Source: Tannerella sp. (GTDB lineage Bacteria; Bacteroidota; Bacteroidia; Bacteroidales; Tannerellaceae). Taken from it: DNA of 13,790 nt. Both the position numbers and the translations under genes were made by a program. Where the stretch lies: positions 1 through 13,790 of the forward strand of contig JAITQL010000156.1 in the NCBI GenBank assembly GCA_031288935.1. The letters run 5' to 3'. Positions 1,069 to 5,634 of this stretch are shown here, piece after piece; the first letter of the stretch is position 1, and the number at the start of each line of letters is the position of its first letter. The notes under the pieces were generated by a model. It was not told where the DNA came from. It saw nothing but the letters and a program-made list of their open reading frames with translations, and did no database searches.

Positions 1069-2064
1069 TTACCCGTTGATCTCCACAAACCGTTTAAACA
1101 CGTCCAGCGCCCGTCCGGAGGCCAGCGATTCGCGCGCCTCGTCGATGCAGGCTTCGAGCGTCTTGTCGGGACAGAGCACCTGTATGGCAAAGGCGGCGTT
1201 GGCAACGACGCAGTTGCGTTGTGCGTCGGTGGCCGTGTTGTGCAGCACGGCGGAGAAGATGCGGGCGGCATCGGCAGGCGTGTCGCCTCCGAACAGATCG
1301 GCTTCCTGCACGCGCTGAAAGCCGATTGCCTCCGGCGTGTAGATTTTCTCCTTTTCCGGCATGGTGACTTTGAACTCGCCCGTGAGCGAAATCTCGTCGT
1401 AGCCGTCCAGACTGTGCACGACGCCGAAACGGATCCCGCTTGCCTGATACGCATACGTGTAGAGCCGTGCCAGCGGCAGGTTGTATACGCCCAGCAACTG
1501 GTATTGCGGGATGGCCGGGTTGACTAACGGGCCGAGGATGTTGAAGAAACTGCGCACGGCGAGGTTTTTGCGCACGGGTGCAACGGCTTTCAGCGCCGGA
1601 TTGAACAGCGGTGCGTGCAGGTAGGCGATGCGACAGGTGTCCAGCGAGGCGCGCAGCTTGTCGATGTCCGTCGTGAACTTCACGCCGTGCTGCTCCATGA
1701 CGTTGCTGGCGCCGCTCACCGACGAGGCGCCGTAGTTGCCGTGCTTTACCACGTGATAGCCGGCGCCGGCCAGTACAAAACAGGCCGACGTGCTGATGTT
1801 GAACGTGTTTTTCCCGTCGCCGCCCGTCCCTACGATGTCGATGAAGGGGTAGGCGGACAAATCGACCGGAAGGCTCATTTCCAGCAGGGCTTCGCGGAAA
1901 CCGGTCAGCTCTTCGACGGAGATGTTGCGCATCAGGAAAACCGTGATCAGACTGGCGATCTGCGCTTCGTTGCATGTGCCGGATGCAATGCGCTGCAACA
2001 GGGTGCGCGCTTCGTTCCGGTCTAAATACTGGTGTTCAAATAAACGATACAATATCTGTTTCAT
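1069..2064 (-). CDS. trpD: Anthranilate phosphoribosyltransferase
   Basis: This cytosolic enzyme transfers phosphoribose from PRPP to anthranilate, the second step committed to tryptophan. The 331-residue length is normal for the family. An N-terminal helical domain (about 1-70) precedes the PRPP-binding motif GTGGDGKNTFNIST at 79-92. The second substrate loop KHGNYGASSVSGASN follows at about 107-121, and NILGPLVNP near 175. These are the expected signature regions. The ATG at 2064 opens the frame and sits 33 bases after the trpG stop, so the two are probably on one transcript. It is the last gene of the unit: a terminator follows, while trpC, trpF and trpA, which usually come next in Bacteroides-type operons, are absent. 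Confidence 0.97.
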   Translation of the reverse strand: MKQILYRLFEHQYLDRNEARTLLQRIASGTCNEAQIASLITVFLMRNISVEELTGFREALLEMSLPVDLSAYPFIDIVGTGGDGKNTFNISTSACFVLAGAGYHVVKHGNYGASSVSGASNVMEQHGVKFTTDIDKLRASLDTCRIAYLHAPLFNPALKAVAPVRKNLAVRSFFNILGPLVNPAIPQYQLLGVYNLPLARLYTYAYQASGIRFGVVHSLDGYDEISLTGEFKVTMPEKEKIYTPEAIGFQRVQEADLFGGDTPADAARIFSAVLHNTATDAQRNCVVANAAFAIQVLCPDKTLEACIDEARESLASGRALDVFKRFVEING

Positions 2065-2097: not shown

Positions 2098-2664
2098 TTA
2101 TTGCACAAGCCAGTTGTGCAATATGGTTTTGCCCTTGGGCGTGAGGACGGATTCGGGATGAAACTGCACGCCGCGCACGTCGTACGTACGGTGGCGAAGC
2201 GCCATGATCCGGCCTTCCGCGGCATCGACGGCCGTCACTTCCAGACATGCGGGGAAGTTCTCTTTCGATACGACCCACGAATGATAGCGTCCGGCGCGGA
2301 AGCCGGGTTCCAGGCCGGCAAACAGCGGGTCTTTTACCGTAATGCGGATATCCGAACAAATCCCGTGGAAGACGTGCGTCAGGTTCAGCAGCTTTGCGCC
2401 GAAGACTTCGCCGATGGCCTGTTCGCCGAGGCATACGCCGAGGATGCTTTTCGTCGGCGCGTAACGTTCAATCAGCGGCAGCAGCAGTCCGGCTTCCGAC
2501 GGGATGCCCGGGCCGGGCGAGAGGACGATCTTGTCGAACGCCGCCACGGCATCCAGCGAAATCCGGTCGTTCCGGTGTACTTCTACCTCTGCACCCAGCT
2601 CCAGCAGGACATGCCGCAGGTTGTAGGTGAAGGAATCGTAATTGTCAAACAGCAGTATTTTCAT
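2098..2664 (-). CDS. trpG: Anthranilate synthase component II (glutamine amidotransferase)
   Basis: This small subunit releases ammonia from glutamine and passes it to TrpE, which makes anthranilate from chorismate. It is a single class I amidotransferase domain of 188 residues, the usual length for a stand-alone TrpG. It starts with the typical LLFDNYDSFTYNL, followed by the SPGPGIP loop at 49-55. The nucleophile elbow GVCLGEQAIGE has Cys78, and FHPES supplies the other catalytic residues His169 and Glu171. The residue after the elbow glycine is Glu where many homologues have His or Gln; it is not part of the catalytic triad. The ATG lies three bases after the trpE stop, implying tight translational coupling to its partner subunit. 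A role in folate synthesis as PabA is possible in principle, but the operon position favours tryptophan. Confidence 0.96.
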   Translation of the reverse strand: MKILLFDNYDSFTYNLRHVLLELGAEVEVHRNDRISLDAVAAFDKIVLSPGPGIPSEAGLLLPLIERYAPTKSILGVCLGEQAIGEVFGAKLLNLTHVFHGICSDIRITVKDPLFAGLEPGFRAGRYHSWVVSKENFPACLEVTAVDAAEGRIMALRHRTYDVRGVQFHPESVLTPKGKTILHNWLVQ

Positions 2665-2667
2665 GGC

Positions 2668-4071
2668 TTAATGAATTAATGTTTCCGCCTGGCGAATGGC
2701 TTTGTCCAGCGCTCCCAGCTTGTTGTTTACTTCCTGCAACTCGCGTTCCTCGTTGCTGAGCGCCACAATCCCTGCGCCCGCCTGATAGTAGAGGACATTG
2801 CCGCGGCTCACGAATGTGCGTATCGTGATGGCCTGATTCAGGTCGCCGTTCAGTCCGATGAAACCGATGCAGCCGCCGTATGCGCCGCGGTTTTGCTTTT
2901 CCAGTCCGGTAATCAGCTCCATCGCCCGCACTTTGGGCGCGCCGCTGAGCGTGCCGGCAGGGAAGGTGTCGATGTAGGTCTGCACGGCGTTGCTGCCGGC
3001 ATTGATTTCGCCGCTCACGCGCGAGACCAGGTGGATCACGTGGCTGTAATACTGCACCTCCTTGTAGAAATCGACCTGTACATTGTGCGCGTTGCGGCTC
3101 AGGTCGTTCCGTGCCAGATCCACCAGCATGACATGTTCGGCATTCTCCTTTGGATCGGCCAGAAGCAGTTCGGTGCGCTGCTTGTCCAGCGTCTCGTTGC
3201 CGGAGCGGAACGTTGTCCCGGCTATCGGGTCGATGCTGGCGTGTCTCTTTGTCACTTTGCAGTGCGTTTCGGGCGACGAGCCGAAAATACGGAATCCCCC
3301 AAAGTCGAAGTAAAACAGATAGGGCGATGGATTGATACTCCTCAGAGTGCGGTAGACCTTGAAGTCGTCGCCCTGAAAAGCCTGCTCGAAACGGCGGCTC
3401 AGCACAATCTGGAACACGTCGCCGCGCTGACAGTGGCGGATGCCTTCGCGTACCGTCGCCTTGTATTCGTCGTCGGTAACGGTCGACGTGCGCTGTCCGA
3501 CGGTGTGGAAGTTGTACGACGCAAAGTTCCGGTTTTCGATCAGCGTTTCCATCTCTGCCAGATGATCGGCTTCGCCTTCCTGCAAAAGCTCGATCACCGT
3601 CAGTTCGTTTTTGAAATGGTCGAACACGAGGTAATACTTATACAGGAGATACAGCATGTCCGGCGCGTCGTTTTCCCGGTGATGAATTTCCATTACGGGG
3701 ATATTCTCGAAATAGCGTACGGCGTCGAAGGCCGTGTAACCGAACAGGCCGCAGAAGGCGTTTCCTTCTCCTTCCACGTCAAAAGCGCTCAGGAAGACGT
3801 TCAGGGCGTCTGCTACGGAAAAGTCGGCAGACAAAGGTCGATGCACTGCCGTGCCGTCGGGATAAACCGACGTGGCTTCCGCACGGTTGATGCCGATTCG
3901 CGCCAAAGGGCAAAGCGTAATGAACGACAGGCTGTTCTCGTCGCCGTGGAAGTCGGAACTTTCCAGCAGCGCCGATTCGGGATAGATGTCGCGTAACTTC
4001 AGGTACAGGCTGACCGGCGTATGCAGGTCGCTCAGCAGTTGCTTGCTTGCAGTTGTAAATTTGTAACTCAT
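2668..4071 (-). CDS. trpE: Anthranilate synthase component I
   Basis: The large subunit converts chorismate to anthranilate using ammonia delivered by TrpG. From the chosen start it has 467 residues, normal for the family. The N-terminal part carries LLESS at 35-39, the motif that in characterised TrpE proteins lies in the allosteric tryptophan site, so feedback inhibition is likely. The chorismate-binding domain shows GDVFQIVLSRRF, NPSPYLFYFDFG, PIAGTTFRSGNE, KENAEHVMLVDLARND and GTLSGAPKVRAMELI in order. The frame is open up to 4113, but the extra 14 residues are encoded by a low-complexity AT-rich spacer and overlap the trpB end. The ATG at 4071 (MSYKFTTASKQLL) matches the usual N-terminus and leaves 23 bases after trpB. 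Pabb-like function is less likely given the LLES motif and the neighbours. Confidence 0.96.
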   Translation of the reverse strand: MSYKFTTASKQLLSDLHTPVSLYLKLRDIYPESALLESSDFHGDENSLSFITLCPLARIGINRAEATSVYPDGTAVHRPLSADFSVADALNVFLSAFDVEGEGNAFCGLFGYTAFDAVRYFENIPVMEIHHRENDAPDMLYLLYKYYLVFDHFKNELTVIELLQEGEADHLAEMETLIENRNFASYNFHTVGQRTSTVTDDEYKATVREGIRHCQRGDVFQIVLSRRFEQAFQGDDFKVYRTLRSINPSPYLFYFDFGGFRIFGSSPETHCKVTKRHASIDPIAGTTFRSGNETLDKQRTELLLADPKENAEHVMLVDLARNDLSRNAHNVQVDFYKEVQYYSHVIHLVSRVSGEINAGSNAVQTYIDTFPAGTLSGAPKVRAMELITGLEKQNRGAYGGCIGFIGLNGDLNQAITIRTFVSRGNVLYYQAGAGIVALSNEERELQEVNNKLGALDKAIRQAETLIH

Positions 4072-4073
4072 AC

Positions 4074-4112
4074 GTTTGAATTGAGAATTAAGAATCAAGA
4101 ATTGTGATTGCA
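4074..4112. repeat. AT-rich spacer with iterated AATTCT-type words between trpB and trpE
   Basis: The short gap reads, on the minus strand, as near copies of AATTCTTGATTCTTAATTCT ending in CTCAATT. It overlaps the last codons of trpB. Comparable spacers occur after nuoN (5606-5640, units of GAATCTTT) and in front of trpB (5318-5340). They look like simple intergenic filler and explain the false upstream extension of trpE. Confidence 0.5.
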
Positions 4113-5294
4113 CGTTTGAAAGTGTTTGATATAGGTATCCATGTCCTTGTCGCCCCGTCCCGAAACGGTCAGGACAACAATGTCCGACGGTCGAAACGGC
4201 TGCTTTTTCAATATGCCCAGGGCATGCGCACTTTCCAGCGCCGGAATAATACCTTCCAGCTTTGTCAGTTCAAAGGCGGCCTGCAATGCCTCGCCGTCAT
4301 CGACAGGCAGCACGGTCGCCCGCTGTTCGTCGGCCAGATACGCATGTATCGGCCCGATACCCGGATAGTCCAGTCCGGCGGAAATCGAGTAGGGTTCTTC
4401 GATCTGTCCGTCTTCGTCTTGCATCACCAGCGTGCGTGCGCCGTGAATGATACCGAGTTTTCCCAGTTGAATGGTGGCGGCGCTCCTGCCCGAATGGACG
4501 CCCTGGCCACCGGCTTCGGCCAGGATGATTTTCACACGCCCGTCGTCCAGGTAATGGTAAACCGTGCCGGCTGCGTTGCTGCCTCCGCCCACGCAGGCAA
4601 TCAGGCAGTCGGGATAGTCGCGTCCTTCCTTTTCAGCCAGCTGCCATTTAATTTCTTCGCTGATGACGGATTGCAGGCGTGCCACCAGATCGGGGTAGGG
4701 ATGCGGCCCGACCGTCGATCCGATGATGTAGAACGTGTCCGAGGGATGGCAGCACCAGTCGCGGATGGCCTCGTTGGTGGCATCTTTGAGCGTCATGTTG
4801 CCGGAGGTGACCGGCACGACCTCGGCGCCCAGCATCCGCATCTTCTGTACGTTCGGCTGCTGACGCTCCACGTCCGTTTTCCCCATGTACACCACGCAGG
4901 GCATGTTCATCAGGGCGCAGACCGTAGCCGTCGCCACGCCGTGCTGTCCGGCGCCCGTTTCGGCGATGATGCGCTGCTTGCCCATCCGCTGCGCCAGCAG
5001 GATCTGTCCGACGGTGTTGTTGATCTTGTGTGCACCGGTATGGTTCAAGTCTTCGCGCTTGAGGTAGATGCGGCAATGATACTGTTCGCTCAGCCGCTTC
5101 GCCAGATACAGGGGCGAGGGTCTGCCGGCATAATCGCGCAGCAGGCGGTGAAATTCCCGCTTGAACGAATCGCTGTCGAGCACGCCGAGATACGTCTTTT
5201 GCAGGTCGCTCACGCACCGGTGCAGAATCTCCGGGACATACGCCCCGCCGAATTTTCCGTAATATCCATTTTCGTCTACTTGATAAGTTTTCAT
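4095..5294 (-). CDS. trpB: Tryptophan synthase beta chain
   Basis: This PLP enzyme joins indole and serine to give tryptophan, normally in complex with TrpA. From the ATG at 5294 it has 399 residues, the typical length. The N-terminal GYYGKFGGAYVPE is characteristic. The PLP lysine is in LNHTGAHKINN (Lys90 from this start), followed by ETGAGQHGVATA, GSTVGPHPYP, the phosphate-binding CVGGGSNAAG and AEAGGQG. ALESAHA and the serine/glycine loop LTVSGRGDKD come near the C-terminus. A TTG nine bases upstream is in frame, but the ATG is the better start. It is the first structural gene after the leader and attenuator, so its expression should respond to tryptophan. Its partner gene trpA is not in this window. 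Confidence 0.97.
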   Translation of the reverse strand: MKTYQVDENGYYGKFGGAYVPEILHRCVSDLQKTYLGVLDSDSFKREFHRLLRDYAGRPSPLYLAKRLSEQYHCRIYLKREDLNHTGAHKINNTVGQILLAQRMGKQRIIAETGAGQHGVATATVCALMNMPCVVYMGKTDVERQQPNVQKMRMLGAEVVPVTSGNMTLKDATNEAIRDWCCHPSDTFYIIGSTVGPHPYPDLVARLQSVISEEIKWQLAEKEGRDYPDCLIACVGGGSNAAGTVYHYLDDGRVKIILAEAGGQGVHSGRSAATIQLGKLGIIHGARTLVMQDEDGQIEEPYSISAGLDYPGIGPIHAYLADEQRATVLPVDDGEALQAAFELTKLEGIIPALESAHALGILKKQPFRPSDIVVLTVSGRGDKDMDTYIKHFQTCNHNS

Positions 5295-5345: not shown

Positions 5346-5382
5346 AAAAAAAGGTCTGTCGTGAGTATGACAGGCCTTTTTT
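5346..5382 (-). terminator. Terminator-like hairpin of the trp attenuator
   Basis: On the minus strand AAAAAAGG-C-CTGTC (5382-5369) faces GACAG-A-CCTTTTTT (5360-5347), with an 8-base loop and a run of seven T (5352-5346). One position (C5374 against A5355) is mismatched on this strand; on the + strand the same position would be a G-U pair. It lies between the leader peptide stop and trpB, which is where an attenuator terminator belongs. Part of the loop and 3' arm can pair instead with upstream leader segments: TACTCAC (5367-5361) with GTGAGTA (5421-5415), or CACGAC (5363-5358) with GTCGTG (5410-5405). Those pairings could act as antiterminators. Confidence 0.75.
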
Positions 5383-5413
5383 CATCACTTTTCAGATAAA
5401 TACGCACGACGTG

Positions 5414-5476
5414 TTACTCACAATGTATAAATTGCATGCGCCACCACCAATATGTATTTACTGAAAACATTTCCAT
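5414..5476 (-). CDS. trpL: trp leader peptide with three consecutive Trp codons
   Basis: A 20-codon frame starts ATG at 5476 and ends TAA at 5416-5414. It encodes MEMFSVNTYWWWRMQFIHCE; a second ATG at 5470 would give 18 residues. Three TGG codons stand side by side at 5449-5441. The frame lies just downstream of a consensus promoter and about 120 bases upstream of trpB, and is followed by a terminator-like hairpin. Three adjacent codons for the rarest amino acid, directly before a trp operon, are the hallmark of a ribosome-stalling leader. CGCATG (5440-5435), right after the Trp codons, can pair with CGTGCG (5408-5403), giving a 1:2 type stem. When Trp-tRNA is scarce the ribosome would stall before that segment and free the antiterminator. 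The peptide itself probably has no other role. The mechanism is inferred from layout. Confidence 0.88.
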   Translation of the reverse strand: MEMFSVNTYWWWRMQFIHCE

Positions 5477-5495
5477 TCAATAATTAATTCGGCTG

Positions 5496-5531
5496 CAAAT
5501 ATAGAGTGTTTTTTTGAACGGACAAGCAAAA
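5496..5531 (-). promoter_or_regulatory. Promoter of the trp operon (Bacteroidetes type)
   Basis: The minus strand carries TATATTTG (5503-5496), a full match to the -7 consensus TAnnTTTG of Bacteroidetes. TTG lies at 5525-5523, 19 bases upstream, within an overlapping TTTTGCTTG that serves as the -33 element. Transcription would start near 5489, giving a leader RNA that begins about a dozen bases before the leader-peptide ATG. Bases 5532-5634, between this promoter and the nuoN stop, hold only GAATCTTT repeats and a weak TTTTGC/GCAAAA inverted repeat (5546-5565); I see no convincing terminator for the nuo unit. Confidence 0.75.
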
Positions 5532-5634
5532 CCGGCTAAAACTTTTTTTGCGATGCTATGCAAAATAATTGGCAGTACGATAGTCGAACGGGGATGGCGC
5601 CTGCTTGAATCTTTGAATCTTTAAATCTTTGAAT

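Follow-up and report, generated by a model that had tools for sequence, protein, structure and literature searches.

The window, by which we mean the whole 13,790-nucleotide stretch of Tannerella sp. DNA that was analysed, carries a tryptophan operon on its minus strand. The first structural gene of the regulated operon is trpB (4095..5294, with its ATG at 5294; Pfam PF00291), and it is followed on the same strand by trpE (2668..4077; PF00425 and PF04715), trpG (2098..2664; PF00117) and trpD (1069..2064; PF00591 and PF02885), giving the order trpB-trpE-trpG-trpD downstream of the leader described here. We noticed no trpC-like frame in the window; a different contig of this genome has a partial IGPS match that begins at its base 1. 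The window trpB is 77-85% identical to those of the 80 named relatives listed, and the nearest among those listed are Tannerella, Prevotellaceae, Massilibacteroides and Parabacteroides records. Upstream of the leader, on the same strand, Pfam matches identified three genes of the nuoN, nuoM and nuoL kind, names that we assign from the Proton_antipo families and the gene order. The window also holds two repeat arrays. Positions 295-600, 0.5 kb downstream of trpD, hold about 14.6 copies of a 21-bp unit with 83% matches, and the repeat itself seems to account for the open reading frames listed on either strand at that place. The octamer TTGAATCT is repeated 3.8 times at 5605-5634, between the stop of the nuoN-like frame and the trp promoter.

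Transcription of the leader would start at a promoter whose -7 element, TATATTTG (5503-5496, minus strand), is of the type TAnnTTTG, which we take to be the Bacteroidota promoter consensus and by which we identified the element. The same motif is found 20-51 nt ahead of the leader ATG in 84 of 85 distinct leaders and in about 4% of shuffled upstream sequence. A -33-like element with TTG (about 5523-5526, minus strand) was read in the window only. Downstream of the promoter we read a leader peptide frame, MEMFSVNTYWWWRMQFIHCE (5414..5476, minus strand), of 20 codons with the stop TAA; leaders of the NTYWWWR type precede trpB in relatives as well. Parabacteroides distasonis (L031) is one species in which this leader occurs, and Bacteroides thetaiotaomicron or Flavobacterium johnsoniae would be expected to carry it too. 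It includes three adjacent Trp codons (TGG; 5441..5449, minus strand), the proposed sensing site. Hairpin search and folding placed an intrinsic terminator hairpin with seven T (helix 4; 5346..5382, minus strand) next, so that an intrinsic terminator stands between the leader and the first gene, trpB, as is expected of a ribosome-mediated trp attenuator. The original prediction of a terminator-like hairpin with seven T followed by trpB thus held, with the hairpin at 5382-5346 and the trpB ATG at 5294. It had also pointed to a C-A mismatch in the stem as a reason to test the strength of the hairpin; the mismatch is present, and the hairpin still folds with -13.8 kcal/mol (z -6.39), a value that none of 200 shuffles attained.

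A cmscan search of the window returned Bacteroid-trp (RF01692) as the sole Rfam family over its cut-off, at 5496-5369 on the minus strand, with 51.0 bits against a threshold of 49. The match stops in the 5' arm of the terminator because the model itself ends there (position 131 of 131), and the model therefore contains no antiterminator. Weak matches to other Rfam families, such as Thr_leader, were far below their cut-offs and follow the terminator hairpin. The window element combines the gathering score of the family with a position upstream of trp genes and an open reading frame with Trp codons; such a short frame is presumably a feature of the family. The leader is a member of the Bacteroid-trp family, which was catalogued in 2010, and is not new; as a representative of a catalogued family it is therefore an ordinary finding in itself. 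Whether an attenuator of this kind had been described for Bacteroidetes, a question raised at the outset, is answered in the affirmative by Rfam RF01692 and by Table 1 of Weinberg et al. 2010 (PMC2864571), where Bacteroid-trp is given as a candidate cis-regulatory RNA of Bacteroidetes. The discussion section of PMC6414381 compares it with the E. coli trp leader.

We monitored the distribution of the family in counts that are lower bounds, obtained with stricter filters and with few candidates scored per genome. RF01692 was detected in at least 26 of 41 genomes of the genus at E<=1 (at least 4 over the cut-off), in at least 35 of 247 genomes of the order at E<=0.01 (at least 12 over the cut-off) and in at least 47 of 395 genomes of the phylum at E<=0.01 (at least 38 over the cut-off). 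A TrpB match of at least 650 bits is present in 31 of the 41 genus genomes, and RF01692 (E<=1) was found in 26 of these 31 as against none of the other 10. Reading the sequence upstream of trpB in the five misses by eye uncovered a leader in G003, G011, G038 and G040, those of G038 and G040 with W-R-W and a single Trp codon. By weak match or by eye, 30 of the 31 TrpB-bearing genomes of the genus carry a leader. The remaining genome, G032 (L188), is alone in the genus in encoding a full TrpB without a leader that can be recognised within 300 nt upstream of the gene. The curated cut-off of RF01692 misses most of the true leaders of the genus, with 4 of 41 genomes over it versus a leader in 30 of the 31 that bear TrpB.

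The Trp codons are similarly widespread. In 105 trpB loci, drawn from the genus genomes and 80 named records with some genomes present in both collections, TGGTGG lies upstream of trpB in 97 and is absent in eight (L022, L028, L030, L048, L073, L074, L077 and L099). Of the eight, L022 (which shares its genome with L186) and L048 possess a leader in which Trp is encoded once, the sequence upstream of L073 and L077 is only 197 and 74 nt long, and for L028, L030, L074 and L099 the 300 nt ahead of trpB show no leader. The 97 loci correspond to 85 distinct sequences; addition of L006 and L107-L163 gave 143, of which 140 are distinct. A terminator-like hairpin was found in 139 of these 140 distinct TGGTGG leaders, the exception (L115) being cut by the contig end. 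The first terminator search, over the 85 leaders, had missed L060 and L065 and mispicked L059 and L105; the revised search mends three of the four, and L059, for which it still picks the wrong hairpin, was kept in the pairing tests over 139 leaders described below. The run consists of three consecutive TGG codons in 92 of the 139 and of two in 47, in a set that was selected for TGGTGG. Within 300 nt upstream of trpB, three leaders with one Trp codon (L186, L193 and L048) and one with a split pair, W-R-W (L184), nevertheless keep the terminator and the strand at the stop codon that is discussed next. In such leaders the sensor has possibly decayed naturally or been retuned.

The antiterminator appears to be a single helix, helix 3, between a segment at the leader stop codon and the loop and 3' arm of the terminator. 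Pairing and conservation define its two strands on the minus strand: the putative antiterminator strand UUGUGAGUA (5415..5423), which overlaps the stop codon, and its partner UACUCACGA (5359..5367), made up of the terminator loop and the first bases of the 3' arm. In the window the two form nine contiguous pairs, including one U-G (5423-5415 with 5367-5359), and the score of this helix is attained when the leader stretch is shuffled by dinucleotides in 1.1% of 5000 cases. The original prediction contained two pairings. That at the stop codon is real and conserved, with nine contiguous pairs in place of the seven proposed. The other, a six-pair GTCGTG:CACGAC interaction after the stop, is not conserved and was rejected; it is probably due to chance because it is limited to one of 31 window-type leaders, the window itself.

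To compare helix 3 across the 139 Bacteroidota leaders, we scored, for each leader, the best helix without interruptions that the RNA downstream of the Trp codons can form with the terminator loop plus 3' arm. The mean score was 18.09 versus 11.17 for shuffled sequences, and the score was above the shuffle mean in 138 of 139 leaders; the per-leader shuffle p was at most 0.05 in 106, and the helix was 7-9 bp long in 119. An enteric-style pairing with an equally long piece of the terminator 5' arm did no better than shuffled sequence and was rejected (mean 11.24 versus 12.05, above in 40 of 139). These two scores bear directly on the foremost rival explanation, according to which the same ribosome-mediated attenuation uses another antiterminator pairing, for example an enteric-like one with the 5' arm, and the complementarity of helix 3 is a by-product of a conserved hairpin apex. 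The terminator apex and the stop-codon segment are indeed both conserved, so that their complementarity is partly fixed in the lineage. Set against this are the poor pairing of the 5' arm, the strong pairing of the loop and 3' arm, and the finding that helix 3 holds in groups with different letters (GUCGUAAG, GUCGUGA and UUGUGAGUA).

The variation in helix 3 was followed by column in 126 leaders that could be aligned in register; 13 of the 139 were not alignable. In this register, which was chosen to maximise pairing and hence favours pairs, columns 2-7 pair in 120 to 126 leaders, columns 1 and 8 in 96 and 95, and columns 9 and 10 in 50 and 64. The central pair, column 6, is G-C in 65 leaders, A-U in 56, G-U in 4 and A-A in 1 (n=126). 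A permutation control with 500 deals of the partners in columns 1-8 gave 92.4% pairs observed against a mean of 87.0% and a maximum of 88.5%, a modest excess; random partners still pair at 87.0% because the letters are conserved. By motif, the 139 leaders fall into type B (UCGUAA or UCGUAG, 56), type F (GUCGUGA, 36), type W (the GUGAGU kind of the window, 31) and others (16). Swaps of leaders and terminators between B, F and W lowered the mean score from about 18.4 in native combinations to 12.7-16.6 in five of the six combinations. The exception is F leaders with W terminators, where the letters are complementary too and the score, 18.58, is no lower than the native one. Within a single type, swapped combinations scored about 18, on a par with native ones, and the mixed remainder (16 of 139) scored 15.06 in native combination and 12.4-16.0 when swapped.

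On the best TrpB tree of 97 rows, which leaves out the 29 of 126 leaders lacking a usable TrpB, we count at least 6 changes of the leader base in column 6. Only one independent pair of switches falls on well-supported branches, a number with which a sign test cannot reach significance and which favours the view of helix 3 as a by-product. For the predicted helix 3, the contrast with the 5' arm is stronger evidence than covariation. Taken together with TGGTGG in 97 of 105 trpB loci and helix 3 in 138 of 139 leaders, the G-C and A-U pairs of column 6 give a positive outcome to the check that had been suggested with the original prediction, namely conservation of the Trp-codon run and the stems in relatives with compensatory change.

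The leader stop codon overlaps the 10-nt antiterminator segment in 113 of the 126 leaders; 90 have it at +4 and 23, the window among them, at +8. The use of two registers on the same strand suggests that masking by the terminating ribosome would be under selection. The stops of the remaining 13 leaders lie at +12 (three), just before the segment (two) or 27-39 nt past its start (eight). In these eight late-stop leaders (L012, L050, L061, L069, L083, L094, L108 and L119; 8 of 126) the frames read through the strand, and simple masking by a terminating ribosome does not explain them.

Two further helices involve the leader frame. The RF01692 alignment and the minimum free energy (MFE) fold identify helix 1, the outer stem of a long leader hairpin, with GUAAAUAC (5454..5461, minus strand) as its 5' arm and GUAUUUAU (5396..5403, minus strand) as its 3' arm. 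Directly after the Trp codons, UGCAAU (5431..5436, minus strand) is the 5' arm of helix 2, placed by the helix 2 count and the MFE fold. The 5' part of the antiterminator strand also pairs in helix 2. The 3' arm of helix 2 reaches the antiterminator strand in 123 of 126 leaders and fails to do so in 3, and its mean score is 13.2 versus 8.7 for shuffled codon stretches, above its own null in 114 of 126. It has 6 pairs in the window, 9 to 11 in 19 of the 31 window-type leaders and only 4 in 22 of the 126, of which 17 are of type B. Judging from these pairings, helix 2, in which the codons after the Trp run pair with the antiterminator strand, would be the anti-antiterminator.

Folding of the stretch 5500-5346 gave -40.6 kcal/mol (z -2.62), a value that 3 of 200 shuffles attained, and its MFE structure consists of one long leader hairpin and the terminator. 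We then modelled a stalled ribosome with the second Trp codon in the A site, assuming that about 12 nt downstream are covered. Refolding under these conditions showed that the helix 3 structure is the minimum, or at most 0.5 kcal/mol from it, from emergence of the loop until 11 nt of the 3' arm are out. Beyond 11 nt the window terminator is favoured, with an advantage of 1.7 kcal/mol once the U-run is complete and of 4.2 kcal/mol seven bases later. The helix 3 structure comes within 0.5 kcal/mol of the minimum at some transcript length in 122 of 126 leaders, and at the end of the folded stretch the terminator is ahead by a mean of 8.9 kcal/mol (n=126). When the ribosome was placed at the stop codon of the window, the terminator remained. 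As the full-length terminator is more stable than the helix 3 structure, antitermination, if real, must therefore be kinetic. That the terminator outcompetes helix 3 at full length also lends some weight to another antiterminator pairing; with the evidence on both sides considered, we regard that explanation as unlikely.

Anatomy, conservation and refolding all point to an alternative pairing that is exclusive with the terminator and is placed for release by a ribosome stalled at Trp codons and for masking by one at the stop. The leader is very probably a Bacteroid-trp (RF01692) member that works by ribosome-mediated transcription attenuation; its parts and exclusive pairings come from sequence comparison, and its behaviour in the cell is deduced from them. 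When Trp-tRNA is plentiful, the ribosome would reach the stop codon and cover the antiterminator strand (5423-5415), upon which the terminator would form and transcription would end before trpB. When Trp-tRNA is scarce, the ribosome would stall on the TGG codons and cover the codons of the helix 2 5' arm together with the 5' arm of helix 1; the size of the ribosome footprint is the basis for the predicted covering of the helix 2 arm. The antiterminator strand, left free, could then pair with the emerging terminator loop and 3' arm as helix 3, holding back the terminator hairpin until RNA polymerase has passed. If the leader carries no ribosome at all, helices 1 and 2 would sequester the antiterminator strand and the terminator would form. 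The presence of promoter, 20-codon leader, three TGG codons, exclusive pairings and terminator bears out, at the level of sequence, the original description of a complete ribosome-mediated trp attenuator. Its proposal that a ribosome at the stop would mask the competing strand and a stalled one expose it agrees with the position of the helix 3 strand at the stop codon, with refolding and with conservation.

An explanation with no regulation by Trp would see in the locus a simple leader gene whose terminator is constitutive, or would assign the terminator to the upstream nuo genes. The nuo-like genes are on the same strand and the terminator is stronger than the antiterminator at full length, as this explanation would have it, yet a conserved promoter motif separates those genes from the leader, the Trp run is conserved upstream of trpB, the leader co-occurs with trpB and the alternative pairings are conserved, all of which makes it very improbable. 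Least probable of all is direct control by a protein or tRNA in place of the translating ribosome: TrpR, TRAP and T-box do control trp genes in other phyla, but neither TrpR nor T-box control makes use of a conserved leader with Trp codons, RF01692 alone and no T-box was over its cut-off in the window (cmscan), and a TrpR search gave 0 hits in the 41 genus genomes, many of which are incomplete (G000 is 56% complete), with E. coli positive in the control.

Ribosome-mediated attenuation as outlined above resembles that of E. coli trpL, in which a leader peptide contains adjacent Trp codons, the position of the ribosome selects among exclusive hairpins and an intrinsic terminator precedes the first gene. 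The two share the adjacent Trp codons, the ribosome-chosen hairpins and the terminator ahead of the first gene. They differ in that the E. coli antiterminator (2:3) takes the 5' arm of the terminator, whereas the predicted antiterminator here takes the loop and 3' arm with a strand that overlaps the leader stop codon. Sequestration of the terminator 5' arm, the enteric topology, was not found (40 of 139 leaders above shuffled, versus 138 of 139 for the loop and 3' arm). The initial likening to the logic of the enteric trp attenuator is therefore right as to the logic, but the antiterminator seems to grip the other side of the terminator.

The enteric trp leader is Rfam Trp_leader RF00513 (PMC3766115). 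The actinobacterial trp attenuators named in PMC4833913, those of Corynebacterium glutamicum and Streptomyces venezuelae, belong to the same control class in another phylum, a likeness at the level of description. Passages of PMC4833913, PMC3766115 and PMC7366714 do not give the mechanism. The non-enteric topology of the antiterminator may be an unreported detail, judged by Table 1 and other passages of Weinberg et al. 2010, whose supplement may give a mechanism. Compared with Bacteroid-trp RF01692 itself, the window leader shares the phylum, the leader frame with Trp codons, the outer stem and the terminator 5' arm, and differs in that its stop-codon strand can pair with the loop and 3' arm, an interaction that the model does not contain. 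The new part is this mapped antiterminator of putatively non-enteric topology, drawn from comparison of leaders. Bacteroidota probably have a distinct and widely conserved form of trp attenuation, in which the stop-codon strand would act as an antiterminator that invades the emerging terminator loop and 3' arm, a kinetic block and not capture of the 5' arm. This adds to the catalogued family a testable switching mechanism and an antiterminator missing from the Rfam model: helix 3 predicts which bases to mutate, offers a reason for the conserved letters around the leader stop codon and gives the Bacteroid-trp leader a topology unlike the textbook one.
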